Positions 2,911-11,023 of a stretch of 26,960 nucleotides of DNA are shown in pieces. The notes under the pieces are model-generated. The model was not told the DNA's origin, did no database searches, and saw only the letters and a list, made by a program, of their open reading frames with translations. Source of the DNA: a virus. The position numbers and the translations under genes are program-made. The stretch's first letter is position 1, and the number at the start of each line of letters is the position of its first letter. Where the stretch lies: positions 1 to 26,960 of the IMG/VR virus record IMGVR_UViG_3300037961_001652. One strand, written 5' to 3'.

Positions 2911-4109
2911 TACCACTCCACCGATGTTGGGATTCTGCTAATAATAGGATATTTGTAACTAATGTAATAGCTACAAGCATCTAAAAAATGTGATAAGGAT
3001 TCATCTCTTTTATCAATTCTATTATCATTTGTTCTTTGTGTTTGTTCTAAATCTTTAATCAAGTTTATACAGCTTGGATCAATGGTCATCTTCACTTTAC
3101 CATCGGCTGACCTTAAAAGCCTATTCAAAGAATTGAGCCTATCTGTAACTGGAGGATTCGCTTTCTTTGATATTACATGGAATCCATGATCTTTTAATAT
3201 TTGATGATCTGATCTATGTGATGTGGTTGATCTGGCTGATCCTGTTGCATCTGGGTATACAGGGATATGTGGTGCAATCTTTTTCATTTCCATTGCCATT
3301 AATTCTGTATTTGAATTTGGTATTCTAATCTCTTTGAAGAAATGAGTTGTATCATCAGAGTAAGTACATCCAAGAACTGCTGATCCAAGTATGTTGAAAT
3401 CCATTCCCCAGAATAGATTTTTTGATAGTTGCTCTGCTTTCTTCACATGGATGTTGCGATCAAAGTTGTAGGCGGCTCTGTTTCCTGTTGTTTCAAAGGA
3501 TGCAAGGAACTCTGTTTTAAATGCCCTCTCATCCATCATGCTCTTGGCCTTCTCTATCTCTTCTTGTGGTACATAGCCACCATCTACTGTTGTATACTGC
3601 CAACTCATCCAATCTTCATCCTTACCTTGTCCTCTTAAAAAAGCATCATAGAGATGATCATATCCATTTGGTGTACCAATAAAGAAAGCCTCACCATCAG
3701 TAGTAGTCAACATAGGATAGATGATTTCATCCCATACATGAGGTTTGATATAAGAATATTCTTCCATAACAACCATATCTAATCCAGCACCTCGTAGATT
3801 GTTTTCTTGTTCTGCACCTCTAATAGCAATCTCTGATTCATTTGGTAGTTTAATAGTAAGTTCTGATTCATTGATCTGGCAGTCATATTCTCTAAACAGT
3901 TGCCTCATTAACTTCCAAGTGGTAGCCTTTCCTTGCCTGTAAGTTGGTGTAATTATCCATCGCCTTTCTCCAGATTTGATTTCTTTTGTTAACAACCAAA
4001 TCAAAGATAGATGAGATTTCCCAAACCTTCTTCCAGCTACCAAAACCTTTCGCTTGGCTGGATGATTGATTATCTCTCTTCGTTTTGAATCTATATTCCA
4101 ATTATCCAA
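2910..4109 (-). CDS. terL: Terminase large subunit
   Basis: This is the packaging motor ATPase and headful nuclease, 399 residues. Motifs in order are Walker A GRRFGKS (26-32), Walker B LDMVVMEE (110-117) with the catalytic Glu, and the coupling motif GTPNG (145-149). The RNase H-like nuclease acids are Asp237 (WGMDFN), Asp287 (YPDATG) and Asp377 (HFLDACSY). The start is TTG at 4109, overlapping the stop of the preceding small gene, with AAAAGAG just upstream. The next ATG lies well past Walker A, so TTG must be used. All key residues are present and the length is slightly short but complete. Confidence 0.97.
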   Translation of the reverse strand: MDNWNIDSKRREIINHPAKRKVLVAGRRFGKSHLSLIWLLTKEIKSGERRWIITPTYRQGKATTWKLMRQLFREYDCQINESELTIKLPNESEIAIRGAEQENNLRGAGLDMVVMEEYSYIKPHVWDEIIYPMLTTTDGEAFFIGTPNGYDHLYDAFLRGQGKDEDWMSWQYTTVDGGYVPQEEIEKAKSMMDERAFKTEFLASFETTGNRAAYNFDRNIHVKKAEQLSKNLFWGMDFNILGSAVLGCTYSDDTTHFFKEIRIPNSNTELMAMEMKKIAPHIPVYPDATGSARSTTSHRSDHQILKDHGFHVISKKANPPVTDRLNSLNRLLRSADGKVKMTIDPSCINLIKDLEQTQRTNDNRIDKRDESLSHFLDACSYYISYKYPIISRIPTSVEW

Positions 4110-4278
4110 ATACTCTTTTCATCAAACTTTTGGGAACCTTCTTACCAGCTTTGTACAACCTTTGCATCCTTGCCAAATCCCTACCTCTTTGTGATCGTTT
4201 GCTCCCTTTAACGCCAGATAGGTATTTCTTTGGTACACTCTTAAATCTTTTATCTTTTGCAGTTCTACGAACCTTCAT
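4102..4278 (-). CDS. Small basic protein, 58 aa
   Basis: A 58-residue protein starts at ATG 4278, whose bases overlap the stop of the 57-aa gene. Its own stop overlaps the TerL TTG start. It is extremely rich in Lys and Arg (KDKRFKSVPKKYLSGVKGSK, then MQRLYKAGKKVPKSLMKR). Small phage proteins with a KYLSGxKGSKR...LYKAGKKxP pattern are familiar next to packaging genes, but I cannot assign a function. Nucleic-acid binding is likely from its charge. The four-base overlaps on both sides make it a credible gene despite its size. Confidence 0.7.
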   Translation of the reverse strand: MKVRRTAKDKRFKSVPKKYLSGVKGSKRSQRGRDLARMQRLYKAGKKVPKSLMKRVFG

Positions 4279-4448
4279 ACACCAACCTTTTTCATAGCGA
4301 TCCTATGAGAACTTGTAAAGGTACTTCCCTTTCTCATTGCTGTAACCATCGCTCTTAAATGCTTTCTTGTATGATGTGTTGAATGTCTTTTCATCGCAGA
4401 TATTTGTCTTTTAGTTAGACCAGTAACACTTACACCTTTTACCTTCAT
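4275..4448 (-). CDS. Small basic protein, 57 aa
   Basis: A 57-residue protein starts at ATG 4448, inside the end of the 85-aa gene, and ends in an ATGA-type overlap with the next small gene. It is rich in Lys, Arg, His and Met (LTKRQISAMKRHSTHHTRKH, then MVTAMRKGSTFTSSHRIAMK). This looks like a short pair of helices with a repeated AM-K pattern at about residues 18, 37 and 51. Similar mini-proteins occur in other phages, but I know no function. Charge and position suggest a DNA-associated packaging accessory, which is inference only. Confidence 0.7.
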   Translation of the reverse strand: MKVKGVSVTGLTKRQISAMKRHSTHHTRKHLRAMVTAMRKGSTFTSSHRIAMKKVGV

Positions 4449-4702
4449 CGCCTTCTACGCTTTCTTTCCATTCTTGCTAAATCAGCATCATGTTTAATTC
4501 TTTTTCTACCTTTGGCAATCTTAATGAATGAATTAACTCTTGCACTTGCCCAACTAGATGGTGTCATTCCCGGTCTTGTACCACTACTAACAGCGGCTCC
4601 CAATCCTCTTCTGTAAACTTTCACAAGTGATGATGGTAGTATCTTATTTTTTCTTGCTAATGCTCCGAGTCTTTTCCTAGTTGCTACTGTTATCTTTGCC
4701 AT
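4445..4702 (-). CDS. Basic DUF5824-like protein, 85 aa
   Basis: An 85-residue, strongly basic protein starts at ATG 4702 in a TAATG overlap with the TerS candidate. The centre, RRGLGAAVSSGTRPGMTPSS followed by WASARVNSFI, matches the pattern of phage DUF5824-type proteins (a Gly-x-Arg-Pro-Gly turn, then a Trp-Ala-x-Ala-Arg-Val-Asn helix). The C-terminus is a run of Lys and Arg. The family function is unknown to me. It may assist packaging, since it sits between the TerS and TerL genes. Confidence 0.75.
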   Translation of the reverse strand: MAKITVATRKRLGALARKNKILPSSLVKVYRRGLGAAVSSGTRPGMTPSSWASARVNSFIKIAKGRKRIKHDADLARMERKRRRR

Positions 4703-5070
4703 TAATCAATGCTTAAAATTTTAATAGGTTCGGTCTTATAACTGACCTCTCTACGCTCCCTACTCTTGCCCTCTGTTCTATCTGCTAATTCTTTGGCGGC
4801 CTGTACATTGCCTTTCATGGCGGCACTTATCTGGCCAACAATCACAGCATGGCGAAATGATCTGTCAGCCTCTAAATTGAATCTCTTAATCTTACCACTT
4901 CCAGTTGTCATTGTAATATCTATTGCACTTGAATCTAGTAGTTCATTGGCTACATCTGCCCATGCTTCGCCTTTCTTTGGTCTACCTTTAGGGTTGCCAG
5001 ATTGACCTTTCTTAAATGGCTTACCAAATACCCTCTTGCTGTTTCCTTGCTGTTTATCAGCCTTCGACAC
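4702..5070 (-). CDS. DUF5681-type protein, terminase small subunit candidate
   Basis: This is a 122-residue protein. I place the start at GTG 5070 because AAAGGG lies six bases upstream. The alternative TTG at 5076 abuts that site. Residues 18-36 hold the FKKGQSGNPKGRPKKG signature of DUF5681 proteins. The C-terminal half has HAVIVGQISAAMKGNVQAAK, a helical repeat seen in small terminase-like proteins. It overlaps the 3' end of the methyltransferase fusion. Its position upstream of TerL makes DNA recognition for packaging the best guess. A direct TerS homology is not evident. Confidence 0.7.
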   Translation of the reverse strand: MSKADKQQGNSKRVFGKPFKKGQSGNPKGRPKKGEAWADVANELLDSSAIDITMTTGSGKIKRFNLEADRSFRHAVIVGQISAAMKGNVQAAKELADRTEGKSRERREVSYKTEPIKILSID

Positions 5071-6244
5071 GCTCAACCCTTTCTGCTTTCTTACCAGTAA
5101 ACTCTTCCCATCTTTTAACTATTACATCACAGTAATGCGGATCAAGTTCCATGCCATAGCATTTTCGATTAGTTTTCTCACAGGCTATAAGTGTTGAACC
5201 AGAACCAAGAAAAGGATCAATGCATATGTTTCCTAAATCTGATGAGTTATCAATAGCATTGACCATCATTTGTGTAGGTTTTTGAGCATTGTGCTTTCTA
5301 TCTTTAGTCGCTCTGTTATGTCTCCATATATTTGGTTTTCCATTTATAGTTCTTTCACCCTTTCCTGTTTTTTTAACACCATGAGTTTTTGTAGCTATTG
5401 GAGAATTTGCAAAAAACCAAACCATCTCATAACATTGTTGATACATTGCACCAACACCTCCATCTCCTTTATCCCAAATACATAAATTTTTAGCTGTTAG
5501 CTTTGATTCTCTTGCAGATGATTCTAAAGAAAATGCACTATGCCAATCACAACAAACATAGATATGAGAATATAATTTTGTATTATTTCTACATAAATTA
5601 AAAACATCACGAAAAAAAGGCTTTACCATTTTATCATCTGTTATTCCAGCAACTCCTGTTGAGTTACCAAATAAAGCATAAGGGGGATCAGTAAATACCA
5701 TATCAGCTTTGTTTCCATCCATTAATAAATCAACATCTTCTTTCTTGGTTGCATCTCCACATAATAAGCGATGATCTCCTAATATCCATAAATCACCTTG
5801 CTTTGTTATGGCTTCTTCTACTTCTGGAATCTCATCATCATCTATTAACCCTTGCTCTGGTTCATCTTCATAAAATTGTAATTCATCATCTGTGAATCCC
5901 CAATCCATTAACTCATCTACATCAAAGTAATTAGCTAATGAATCATAATCCCATTCACCAACATTCTTATTAAGCCTTATATTTAATTCTTTTTCTTGGT
6001 CTATAGATAAATCAACTTCAACACATGGAACTTTTTTGATTCCTAGTTCCTTTGCGATCCTTAATCTTTGATGACCTCCAACAAGTATATTATCTCTATC
6101 TTTATTTTTATTTACAATCAAGGGATCTACTAGGCCAAATCTTTGTATAGAGTCTTTTAGTTGAGCGTGTTGCTCTTTAGTGAGTTGGCGAGGATTATAC
6201 TCTGCCATTATCAGATCATTTGGTTTGTAGTTTTGTACTTTCAT
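5057..6244 (-). CDS. ParB-like nuclease domain fused to DNA methyltransferase
   Basis: A 395-residue two-domain protein. Residues 1-95 are a ParB N-terminal-like domain, with NPRQLTKEQHAQLKDSI and then ILVGGHQRLRIAKELG. A Glu/Asp-rich linker (about 115-145) follows. Residues 150-385 are a beta-class amino-methyltransferase (N6-adenine or N4-cytosine): catalytic DPPY at 186-189, the HNAQKP form of the HPTQKP motif at 318-323, and the SAM-binding DPFLGSGS at 343-350. All key motifs are intact. Such fusions are common in phages and likely mark phage DNA against host restriction. The ATG at 6244 has no clear ribosome site and follows a 178-base non-coding stretch. Confidence 0.93.
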   Translation of the reverse strand: MKVQNYKPNDLIMAEYNPRQLTKEQHAQLKDSIQRFGLVDPLIVNKNKDRDNILVGGHQRLRIAKELGIKKVPCVEVDLSIDQEKELNIRLNKNVGEWDYDSLANYFDVDELMDWGFTDDELQFYEDEPEQGLIDDDEIPEVEEAITKQGDLWILGDHRLLCGDATKKEDVDLLMDGNKADMVFTDPPYALFGNSTGVAGITDDKMVKPFFRDVFNLCRNNTKLYSHIYVCCDWHSAFSLESSARESKLTAKNLCIWDKGDGGVGAMYQQCYEMVWFFANSPIATKTHGVKKTGKGERTINGKPNIWRHNRATKDRKHNAQKPTQMMVNAIDNSSDLGNICIDPFLGSGSTLIACEKTNRKCYGMELDPHYCDVIVKRWEEFTGKKAERVERVEG

Positions 6245-8955: not shown

Positions 8956-9760
8956 AAATCTCCTCCATGTTTTTGATTTCCTTACTATTATCAATCTTTG
9001 GATCATCCGGGAGTAACTCAACCCCACAACAATCACTTGATTGCCTTAACTGAAATTCATTAGGTAATAATTTACCACCACACTTCATACACCAAGCCTT
9101 GTACAATCCAGATGGTGTTTTTTGAAATACTTTCTTTGATGGCTTTGGTTTTGCTGGTTGCAAATCCTCAATCTCATCATTCCAACATTCTTGATTCAAC
9201 CATGTGGTAGGATGTTTGATATATGCTTTATCTCGCCCCTCCCATAACTTCTTTTGTTTGGTCAATGCTGACATGATGGTAGTATGATCTGTTTTCTTCA
9301 TTGCTGACCTATAAGAACTTTCTGCTTTTGAACGACTCACCTTCTTATCATATAGGTTCCAAAATTCTTCAAATTGATCTATATATATATTTATTGTATT
9401 TCTTTTGTTATTGTTTAGTGTTCGCTCGCTGTTCACTTTTTGATAGTCGCCCCAGTTAACTATTGATATTATGCGACATACGCTGTTCATTTGTTGTTCG
9501 ATTTGTGAGTCATTTTCAAACAGTTTTAATATCCTTTGAACCTTGCTTTCATTGATCTTTAATTCTTTTGAAATCTTCTTTCTACCAGTAATCAACTGAC
9601 CAGATGTTAATGTAACTTTCTTTGATCCTATTAATACTTGATAATCTTGATGGGTAGCATTAAGCAACAAGTACATCCAAACAGCTAGATGATCATTAGA
9701 TTTCATCACTACAGGATTATCTAATATTTTACGATGTAGCTTAATGTATCCGTTATTCAT
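8933..9760 (-). CDS. Replication initiator-like winged-helix protein
   Basis: A 275-residue protein starts at ATG 9760, overlapping the methyltransferase stop. The N-terminal 110 residues (GYIKLHRKILDNPVV, then LTSGQLITGRKKISKELKIN, then ISIVNWGDYQ) match the winged-helix domain of phage replication organisers (DnaD / phage O-like proteins). The middle, FWNLYDKKVSRSKAESSYRS, and the HPTTWLNQECWNDE segment also occur in phage replication proteins. The C-terminal quarter has a possible zinc site (CMKCGG, then DCCG). It most likely binds the origin and recruits the host helicase. Confidence 0.82.
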   Translation of the reverse strand: MNNGYIKLHRKILDNPVVMKSNDHLAVWMYLLLNATHQDYQVLIGSKKVTLTSGQLITGRKKISKELKINESKVQRILKLFENDSQIEQQMNSVCRIISIVNWGDYQKVNSERTLNNNKRNTINIYIDQFEEFWNLYDKKVSRSKAESSYRSAMKKTDHTTIMSALTKQKKLWEGRDKAYIKHPTTWLNQECWNDEIEDLQPAKPKPSKKVFQKTPSGLYKAWCMKCGGKLLPNEFQLRQSSDCCGVELLPDDPKIDNSKEIKNMEEIYGRLGMG

Positions 9761-10653
9761 TTGATTCTTTTCATTATTTCGTATGCAACTTGAGGAACGA
9801 TAGCATTTCCTAATCCTTTAAGTCTGTCCACCCTATTGGGAATCCCATTAGCCACTCTACCCAATTCGGGTTCAAACTTCCAGTAGTCTCTTGATTTTGA
9901 GTTGGAAACATATCTTTCATGTGTACCGCTTGGCTCAAGTTTACTGAATGCATTGAGCCTTCTTTCTGCTGACTGCTTTTTAGTTTGTCTGTGAATGTGT
10001 CTGCTACTGTCGGTGTTGGAAACATTCTTGGTTCTTTTAATAATCCTTTTTCTATCGCATTCAATTGATCGTTCAGATTTAATGGCATCCCTCTTTTGAT
10101 TCTGTTTTTCAACCCCTCGTAGGAATATTTCCCCCTGTTCATGTTCGCATCTGGAGTACGCCACAATCCAGATTCTTTTTCTTCTGTGCCAAGCACCAAC
10201 ATCGTCTGCTCCGATAATTTGCCATTCCGCATCATACCCGATTTGGGCAAGATCTGCAACAACTCTTGTTCCTCCCCGAATAGTGAGCATTGGTACATTT
10301 TCAATGATTGCGAATCTTGGTCGTATTTCGCTAATGATGCGGTGCATTTCTGACCAAAGACCGCTCCTAGTTCTTTTTCCTGTTTCTTCATCTATCAAAC
10401 CTTTACCCTTTCCAGCTACTGATATATCTTGGCATGGAAAACCTCCTGTAATTAAATCAATGTCTTTGAATTGAGTTCCATCCAATTTAGTAATATCTTG
10501 ATATATTGGAACATCGGGAAAATTCTTTTTTAATACTTTTTGAGCATATTCCTCTATCTCACAAAATCCGACTATATCTAATTCTTTTCCCCATCTATAT
10601 TGACCAGCTAAAGCAAAACCACCAATACCAGAGAATAAATCAAGCATTCTCAT
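9757..10653 (-). CDS. DNA (cytosine-5) methyltransferase
   Basis: This is a 298-residue enzyme that methylates cytosine C5 using SAM. Motifs in order are I DLFSGIGGF (5-13), IV GGFPCQ with catalytic Cys74, VI ENV (118-120), VIII RRKRIW (157-162), and IX-X RVANGIPNRVDRLKGLGNAI, with GNAIVP at 282-287. All are intact, so it should be active. The variable target-recognition part (165-255) is unusually rich in Arg, Lys, Gln and Ser. This is explained if that DNA also encodes a second protein in the +1 frame. The start overlaps the HNH gene and the stop overlaps the replication gene. Its role is probably protection from host restriction. Confidence 0.96.
   Translation of the reverse strand: MRMLDLFSGIGGFALAGQYRWGKELDIVGFCEIEEYAQKVLKKNFPDVPIYQDITKLDGTQFKDIDLITGGFPCQDISVAGKGKGLIDEETGKRTRSGLWSEMHRIISEIRPRFAIIENVPMLTIRGGTRVVADLAQIGYDAEWQIIGADDVGAWHRRKRIWIVAYSRCEHEQGEIFLRGVEKQNQKRDAIKSERSIECDRKRIIKRTKNVSNTDSSRHIHRQTKKQSAERRLNAFSKLEPSGTHERYVSNSKSRDYWKFEPELGRVANGIPNRVDRLKGLGNAIVPQVAYEIMKRIK
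9810..10391 (-). CDS. Overprinted ORF within the cytosine methyltransferase gene, 193 aa
   Basis: This ORF lies wholly inside the methyltransferase gene, in the +1 frame. Its ATG at 10391 directly follows an in-frame TAG, and AAAGG lies eight bases upstream. It encodes LPKSGMMRNGKLSEQ (about residues 48-62), SGLWRTPDANMNRGKY, FPTPTVADTF and, at the end, NPNWVEWLMGFPIGWTDL. These are hallmark stretches of stand-alone phage and prophage proteins often found near cytosine methyltransferases. The same bases encode methyltransferase motifs VI-X in the other frame. The function is unknown. No catalytic motif is visible. Sustained openness plus motif conservation argues for real translation or a shared ancestry. 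Confidence 0.6.
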   Translation of the reverse strand: MKKQEKELGAVFGQKCTASLAKYDQDSQSLKMYQCSLFGEEQELLQILPKSGMMRNGKLSEQTMLVLGTEEKESGLWRTPDANMNRGKYSYEGLKNRIKRGMPLNLNDQLNAIEKGLLKEPRMFPTPTVADTFTDKLKSSQQKEGSMHSVNLSQAVHMKDMFPTQNQETTGSLNPNWVEWLMGFPIGWTDLKD

Positions 10654-11023
10654 TTTCTAGCATCAATTTTAATTCATTATAAAAATCATCATTCAACATT
10701 CGTGATCGTTTTACAATTATATTTCTTCTTTGTGTTAGTTCTCTAAATTTTTTAGGGCCTAATCTTTCACGAATAAAATCCAAATGATCTGCTGGATTAC
10801 TACCCAGAAAGCGATGGCATCCATAACATAGAGCCACCGCATTATCTGGATCAAAGCGTACCGAATATCTACCTCTCCCATAATAATGTGAACAATGCAA
10901 TCCCATTCGCTTGTTAGGCTCATCCGGGTTGTAATATTTCTTGCATCTCTGACAAGTCCACTTATCCCTTGTTCTTATATATTCAGAGAATATCTTATCG
11001 TATTTAGTACGCTTAATAGCCAT
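10640..11023 (-). CDS. NinG-like HNH/zinc recombination nuclease
   Basis: A 127-residue protein starts at ATG 11023 in a TGATG overlap. A zinc pair CQRC (24-27) is followed by LHCSHYYGRG (42-51), VRFDPDNAVALC (55-66) and CYGCHRFLGSNPADH (66-80). The order of Cys pair, Cys-x-His and Cys-x-x-Cys-His matches lambda NinG (Rap) and related HNH proteins. NinG resolves or cleaves branched recombination intermediates. A general HNH endonuclease is the alternative. It lies between the putative ssDNA-binding gene and the methyltransferase. Confidence 0.8.
   Translation of the reverse strand: MAIKRTKYDKIFSEYIRTRDKWTCQRCKKYYNPDEPNKRMGLHCSHYYGRGRYSVRFDPDNAVALCYGCHRFLGSNPADHLDFIRERLGPKKFRELTQRRNIIVKRSRMLNDDFYNELKLMLENENA

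Follow-up and report, generated by a model that had tools for sequence, protein, structure and literature searches.

The virus record IMGVR_UViG_3300037961_001652 contains, in a window of 26,960 nucleotides (the whole stretch of DNA that was analysed, positions 1 to 26,960 of that record), a C5-cytosine methyltransferase gene with a second open reading frame of 193 codons in its +1 frame. This raises the question of whether the inner frame is a gene and, if so, what it contributes. The original prediction took it for an overprinted member of a second protein family. We confirmed that the inner ORF lies wholly inside the methyltransferase gene with all the motifs quoted for it, and that the overlap of two coding frames is real, on stronger evidence than had been claimed. 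The interpretation of the two frames is reversed over most of their length: the hidden frame is the DNA-reading half of the enzyme, and the visible frame is its shadow there. On the comparisons given below, we put a probability of about 0.85 on the locus encoding a two-subunit C5-cytosine DNA methyltransferase, made of alpha (motifs I-VIII and X, frame 0) and a nested beta (TRD and motif IX, +1 frame). Table 1 lists the features.

Table 1. Features of the alpha and beta reading frames, in window coordinates.
Feature	Position	Strand	Remarks
Alpha, C5-cytosine methyltransferase ORF	complement(9757..10653)	-	298 aa; motifs I-VIII and X
Alpha motif IV, GGFPCQ, catalytic Cys74	10429..10446	-	Cys invariant in 42 alphas
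Shine-Dalgarno-like AAAGG	10400..10404	-	8 nt before the ATG of beta; made by the GKGKG codons of alpha; found by eye
In-frame stop TAG	10392..10394	-	directly before the ATG of beta
Beta, nested ORF, phrog_1008	complement(9810..10391)	-	ATG start, 193 aa; N-domain, target-recognition modules and motif IX
Beta N-domain, residues 1-73, AKYDxDxxSxK..Q, LPKSGMMRNGKL	10173..10391	-	overprinted on alpha motifs V-VIII; conserved in 47 betas
Alpha motif VIII, HRRKRIWIVA	10159..10188	-	shared bases read the ESGLWRTPD region in beta
Beta target-recognition module 1, WRTPDANMNRG...LNLNDQLNAIEKGLL	10038..10163	-	in frame in one-piece L045
Alpha linker, residues 193-282	9808..10077	-	predicted disordered frame-0 reading of the beta coding sequence; last ~25 codons conserved
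Beta target-recognition module 2, FPTPTVADTFTDKLKSSQQKEGSMHSVNLSQAV	9924..10022	-	same module with different neighbours in L059, L052 and L012
Beta motif IX, LNPNWVEWLMGFPIGWTDL	9819..9875	-	shared bases read EPELGRVANGIPNRVDRLK in alpha
Alpha motif X, GNAIVP	9793..9810	-	just beyond the end of beta

Alpha matches PF00145 (E 2.5e-45) and phrog_363 (E 1.7e-77) in profile searches. It has motifs I, IV (PCQ), VI (ENV) and VIII on a Rossmann-type catalytic domain, and the invariant residues are kept in 42 relatives. AlphaFold models this catalytic domain (residues 1-167) with confidence, and the model aligns with M.HhaI across ~170 columns (E 5.8e-15). The PF00145 match stops at residue 237. No recognisable copy of motif IX occurs in the frame of alpha, which passes from VIII to X (GLGNAIVPQ); the TRD and motif IX are found in the +1 frame rather than between VIII and X of the alpha polypeptide. 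The motif X helix is again confident (pLDDT ~88). Because residues 193-282 have pLDDT < 50 throughout, unlike the catalytic domain, the Lys/Arg/Gln-rich variable region of alpha is best read, on the model, as the frame-0 shadow of the beta coding sequence, serving as an open linker to motif X. The end of this linker (W..EP.LGRVA.G...RVDRLK), encoded by the same bases as motif IX, is conserved in alpha too, so this short stretch is dual-constrained.

Beta matches phrog_1008 ('DNA methyltransferase', E 4.2e-18), with residues 5-191 aligned to positions 58-281 of the 329 in the profile. No Pfam or NCBIfam model matched it in the profile search, a profile search of PDB sequences gave no match up to E 10, and beta alone folds poorly in silico (AlphaFold pLDDT 63). 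Motif IX of C5 methyltransferases follows the pattern L-x-P-x-x-x-x-x-L-x-G-F-P, and the copy missing from the frame of alpha is found in beta as LNPNWVEWLMGFPIGW. Some relatives carry the enzyme in one piece: in L045, a single frame reads motifs I-VIII, then the equivalent of beta residues 74-192 (37% identical, E 5e-27), and then motif X, and L255 and L267 have the same order. A comparison of the beta profile with that of the one-piece enzymes gives a probability of 99.2 and an E-value of 1e-19. By these comparisons, the C-terminal two thirds of beta and the TRD-IX segment of the one-piece enzymes are homologues. The two frames are thus not the two unrelated families that had been supposed: most of beta is the methyltransferase's own small domain, and for most of the length the novel frame is consequently the methyltransferase (alpha) frame and not the +1 frame. 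The profiles of beta and of canonical enzymes (KP15, Streptococcus phage), when compared directly, show no significant match (E 0.4-0.6), and the weak alignment of the canonical LSPRECFRLQGFPDSF opposite LNPNWVEWLMGFPIGW of beta (E 0.64) is suggestive only. Since one-piece and canonical profiles aligned only over motifs IV-VIII, the link of motif IX to the canonical enzymes rests on its position and on the LxPxxxxxLMGFP pattern.

The first 73 residues of beta have no counterpart in L045, L255 or L267, and an alignment of 47 betas shows the conserved motifs AKYDxDxxSxKTxQ and LPKSGMMRNGxL in them. This domain looks like the best candidate for one born by overprinting, on the ancient motifs V-VIII. 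Overprinting, originally proposed for the entire ORF, is a good account of these ~73 residues, which alone look truly overprinted, but not of the remainder. In many relatives, the open frame of beta extends further upstream, across the catalytic motif IV of alpha (SPVKT/SPARTS). Between the N-domain and motif IX, the 98 beta ORFs compared mostly have 1-6 modules headed by xPTP, usually 2-3, and the recognition region grows longer with the number of heads. One near-identical module, PTPTxxDTFTDKLKSSQQKEGSMHSVNLSQAV, is found in L012, L052 and L059 next to neighbours that appear unrelated, which suggests that recognition modules have been shuffled.

Selection on the two frames was assessed with stop codons and with substitutions. 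For the stop test, the amino acids of alpha were held fixed while its synonymous codons were permuted (5000 permutations). The +1 frame of this locus has 0 stops against 8.6 expected, a result matched by 0 of 5000 permutations, while the +2 control frame has 22 against 21.0. Across 109 related loci, we counted 2 stops against 541.8 expected in the +1 frame, and 1481 against 1482.2 in the +2 frame. The long open frame is therefore beyond chance as predicted, yet the chance of one in a million given for it was a naive figure; a Poisson estimate for one gene is about 2e-4. One of the two +1 stops, in L004, lies ahead of the beta start. The sole stop inside beta among the 109 loci (L034:3184-3186, at GMMHDGEL*ELAM, with alpha intact) may be a mutation, an error or an altered code.

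Substitution rates by codon position were obtained from 17 independent pairs that are 70-98.5% identical. In the alpha-only N-terminus, change at alpha positions 1, 2 and 3 is 0.099, 0.054 and 0.224, as in a single coding frame read as alpha. Over motifs V-VIII, where the beta N-domain lies, all positions are slower, with the alpha third position at 0.091. The target-recognition stretch changes at rates of 0.203, 0.153 and 0.35 at the three beta positions, with the alpha third position slowest, and the motif IX stretch is slow in both frames. Four-fold degenerate sites of alpha follow the same boundaries: 0.188 are changed ahead of beta, 0.080 in the beta N-domain (p 1.5e-7 versus 0.188 outside), 0.054 in the TRD and 0.059 in motif IX (p 3.5e-7), returning to 0.25 past the end of beta. 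Change at these sites is about 2.3-3.5 times rarer within the beta ORF than outside, and the suppression begins and ends with beta. Both frames thus behave as translated sequence under selection, and the predicted dual coding of this DNA, with both frames conserved, is borne out by the stop and substitution tests. The target-recognition DNA evolves as a +1-frame gene, and the alpha frame there is essentially unconstrained and need only stay open. The Lys/Arg/Gln-rich composition had been attributed to constraint from the other frame; the +1-frame substitution pattern, together with the pLDDT below 50, speaks against that explanation.

Beta would probably be initiated internally, at the AAAGG...ATG site. 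The upstream TAG closes its frame, so translation of the beta N-domain must begin at the ATG or later. By eye, close relatives have AAGG or AAGGAG at the same place ahead of ATG, GTG or TTG; some relatives lack an obvious beta ATG and have TTG or GTG instead, which counts against the proposal. A general Shine-Dalgarno scan was positive for 126 of 159 betas and 85 of 159 control frames, a weak comparison because the beta frame has more candidate starts. A programmed ribosomal frameshift could instead yield one fused alpha-beta polypeptide, with I-VIII from frame 0 and TRD-IX from the +1 frame, and no separate beta. The resulting order of I-VIII, TRD, IX and X is that of one-piece enzymes, and a few loci (L038, L251) have an alpha start in frame with beta. 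We consider this improbable, since a return to frame 0 for motif X would take a second shift, the TAG closes the beta frame in this phage, and conservation and constraint extend to the beta N-domain, which lies upstream of any site where a shift would be useful. Selection on that domain argues for initiation upstream of it and not for a frameshift at motif VIII.

In the two-subunit enzyme that we favour, alpha would bind SAM and catalyse through motifs I-VIII, continue into a long disordered linker and end with motif X. Beta, translated from its own ATG inside alpha, would supply the small domain with its shuffled target-recognition modules and motif IX. The two polypeptides are expected to assemble into one active enzyme that methylates phage DNA, with beta selecting the target sequence, most likely as an escape from host restriction. 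Heterodimer formation, C5 methylation and the anti-restriction role are proposed here from sequence, and the in vivo function of both polypeptides from their families.

A second possibility, put forward in the original prediction, is that beta functions separately, for example as a regulator or anti-restriction factor, and is only overprinted on the methyltransferase. Its own start and its constrained N-domain, absent from one-piece enzymes, would suit such a protein. We regard this as very unlikely given that the C-terminal two thirds of beta is the small domain of a methyltransferase, that the frame of alpha has neither motif IX nor a folded TRD, and that no beta copy turned up apart from a methyltransferase gene. 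The supposed stand-alone phage family was looked for and not found: wherever the flanking DNA of a beta homologue was long enough, the homologue sat on a methyltransferase gene, whether nested, split or in frame within a single protein. All 80 loci fetched by beta carry an alpha-type match. Loci fetched by alpha, as a check for relatives with a broken +1 frame, carry beta in phase +1 and open. Altogether, 115 of 121 loci have beta in phase +1, and in two it is in frame, either within one protein or within a fragment of such a protein. The other four gave no beta match; they comprise one split pair, one one-piece enzyme and two further phage enzymes that had been fetched for comparison. That the +1 ORF is no gene at all, a by-product of alpha codon use raised to a protein family by ORF callers, has in its favour that alpha motifs partly determine some beta motifs (DLAQIGYDAEW for LPKSGMMRNG). 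Unless some unknown constraint acts on the DNA itself in one frame alone, this reading is already refuted: stops are depleted with alpha amino acids held fixed, alpha synonymous sites are suppressed only within beta, the TRD region has +1-frame rates, and one-piece enzymes contain this sequence in frame.

The nested layout is common in phages and prophages, with the inner gene usually unannotated. Using a motif IV pattern that is blind to beta (GGFPCQDI/M), we collected 104 distinct complete phage alphas, and 89 of these (about 86%) have an open +1 frame across 70% or more of the region that runs from motif IV to the end; the +2 control across this set has 1228 stops against 1209 expected. A motif IX pattern search of bacterial and archaeal species genomes produced 414 candidates, and among the best 80 of the 414, which were classified, 73 satisfy a strict definition of nesting and two are split. 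PHROGs files beta as a 'DNA methyltransferase' in its own right (phrog_1008), a family that probably consists of the nested ORF gathered from genomes, and phage records such as NC_028788 likewise list beta separately under that name. Several records have only alpha, or only a shortened beta, annotated.

Other layouts occur among the relatives. In mycobacteriophage Rebeuca, gp80 ends after motif VIII, and gp79, which carries the TRD, IX and X, overlaps gp80 by 50 bases in the same +1 phase; L052 has an AquI-like split in that phase as well. Inside the nested clade, the one-piece methyltransferase of L045 (L045:2751-3953, + strand) has an open +1 frame of 134 codons (2917-3318, + strand) that still encodes the beta N-domain, and looks like a re-fusion that left this domain behind. 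In L251 (complement 4473-5609) and L287 (complement 4074-4619), a single ORF begins as alpha, as far as motif IV, and goes on as sequence of the beta frame, which places the later alpha motifs in another frame; this may be a frameshift, an error or a further layout. In a tree of 75 catalytic domains, in which many inner branches are weak and no root was inferred, the canonical enzymes group together on a single starred side branch (95). The pair made of the Rebeuca split and the one-piece L255 diverges outside the nested rows, among which isolated splits and re-fusions (L043, L105, L045, L330) are dispersed. A single origin of nesting with later exits would fit this tree. We lean towards the view that many C5 methyltransferases of phages and prophages belong to one large clade whose default, probably single-origin and long-kept architecture is nesting, rather than nesting being a rarity as M.EcoHK31I is. 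In this clade the beta N-domain would have arisen by overprinting of the catalytic domain of its partner, and the alpha linker as the shadow of the recognition domain of beta, each thus invented in the frame of the other polypeptide.

M.EcoHK31I, among the closest known systems, reportedly has a beta of 176 aa that is read in a different frame from within the gene for its 309-aa alpha, with both said to be required for activity; the phage beta ORF is likewise nested in the alpha ORF in another frame. M.EcoHK31I is a two-polypeptide C5 methyltransferase for YGGCCR (Lee, Kam & Shaw 1995, cited in PMC3404938). Its larger subunit contains motifs I-VIII and X together with a predicted TRD, and its smaller subunit contains motif IX (PMC3404938). 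The phage alpha and beta divide the motifs in the same way, and by analogy the enzyme of the window may work in a manner resembling M.EcoHK31I, although that enzyme belongs to a restriction-modification system and ours is a phage gene. Two-polypeptide C5 methyltransferases such as M.EcoHK31I and M.AquI are known; the apparent departure from the published description of M.EcoHK31I is that the recognition modules are in the frame of the phage beta and the corresponding alpha stretch is predicted to be disordered. The two polypeptides of M.AquI divide motifs I-VIII from IX (PMC3404938), a division found here in relatives (Rebeuca gp80/gp79, L043/L052/L105). Unlike M.AquI, where the smaller subunit carries both IX and X and alpha ends after VIII, the phage has X in alpha, and its beta is nested rather than end-overlapping and ends before X. 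The same layout as in the window is present in Paenibacillus phage Diva (NC_028788, AVV25_gp49/gp50), where a 'g49 internal gene' is recorded, both ORFs are annotated 'DNA methyltransferase' and the nested ORF is ~32% identical to beta; our literature search found no publication discussing this internal gene or the spread of the layout. In phage ShiLan, a methylase gene has an HNH endonuclease encoded out of frame (PMC11855218). Both phages thus carry a protein out of frame within a DNA methylase gene, but the ShiLan element is a patchily distributed homing insertion encoding a nuclease, whereas beta is no insertion and is part of the enzyme. We considered and rejected a direct link between the two. 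No profile matched beta to an HNH domain, and almost every relative carries beta.

Two further observations concern the methyltransferase gene and its surroundings. In 22 phage contigs, representing 14 lineages at 75% identity (L202, L203, L205-L208, L210-L221, L223, L226, L233 and L236; L010/L087, L012 and L035 are three of the 22), motif IV carries six extra bases, placed exactly after GGFP and ahead of the catalytic Cys (GGFP-stop-x-CQDI). The insert always opens with a stop codon (TAA, TGA or TAG, with all three found within one lineage), and no methyltransferase with a sense hexamer at this site was found. The frame is open and third-position-biased on both sides of the insertion. L203 carries it without beta, and L372 has a 9-base version that also starts with a stop. 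The insertion may represent recoding, a switch or recurrent inactivation. Just upstream of alpha in the window, an ORF at complement 10640-11023, overlapping the alpha start by 14 bases, looks by eye like an HNH protein (HCSHYYGRGRYSVRFDPDNAVALCYGCHRFLG).

If the two-subunit reading is true, many 'DNA methyltransferase' annotations in phages and prophages name half an enzyme, with the target-reading half often uncalled. Consequences would follow for predicting the methylome motifs of phages, for cloning, where alpha by itself should be inactive or lack specificity, and for family databases in which beta is called simply 'DNA methyltransferase'. The clade would also offer hundreds of deeply diverged, natural, long same-strand overlaps with both frames comparable, a rare resource on the origins of overprinted domains, and a modular target-recognition half that is its own subunit would be a starting point for studying how specificity changes by subunit swap.
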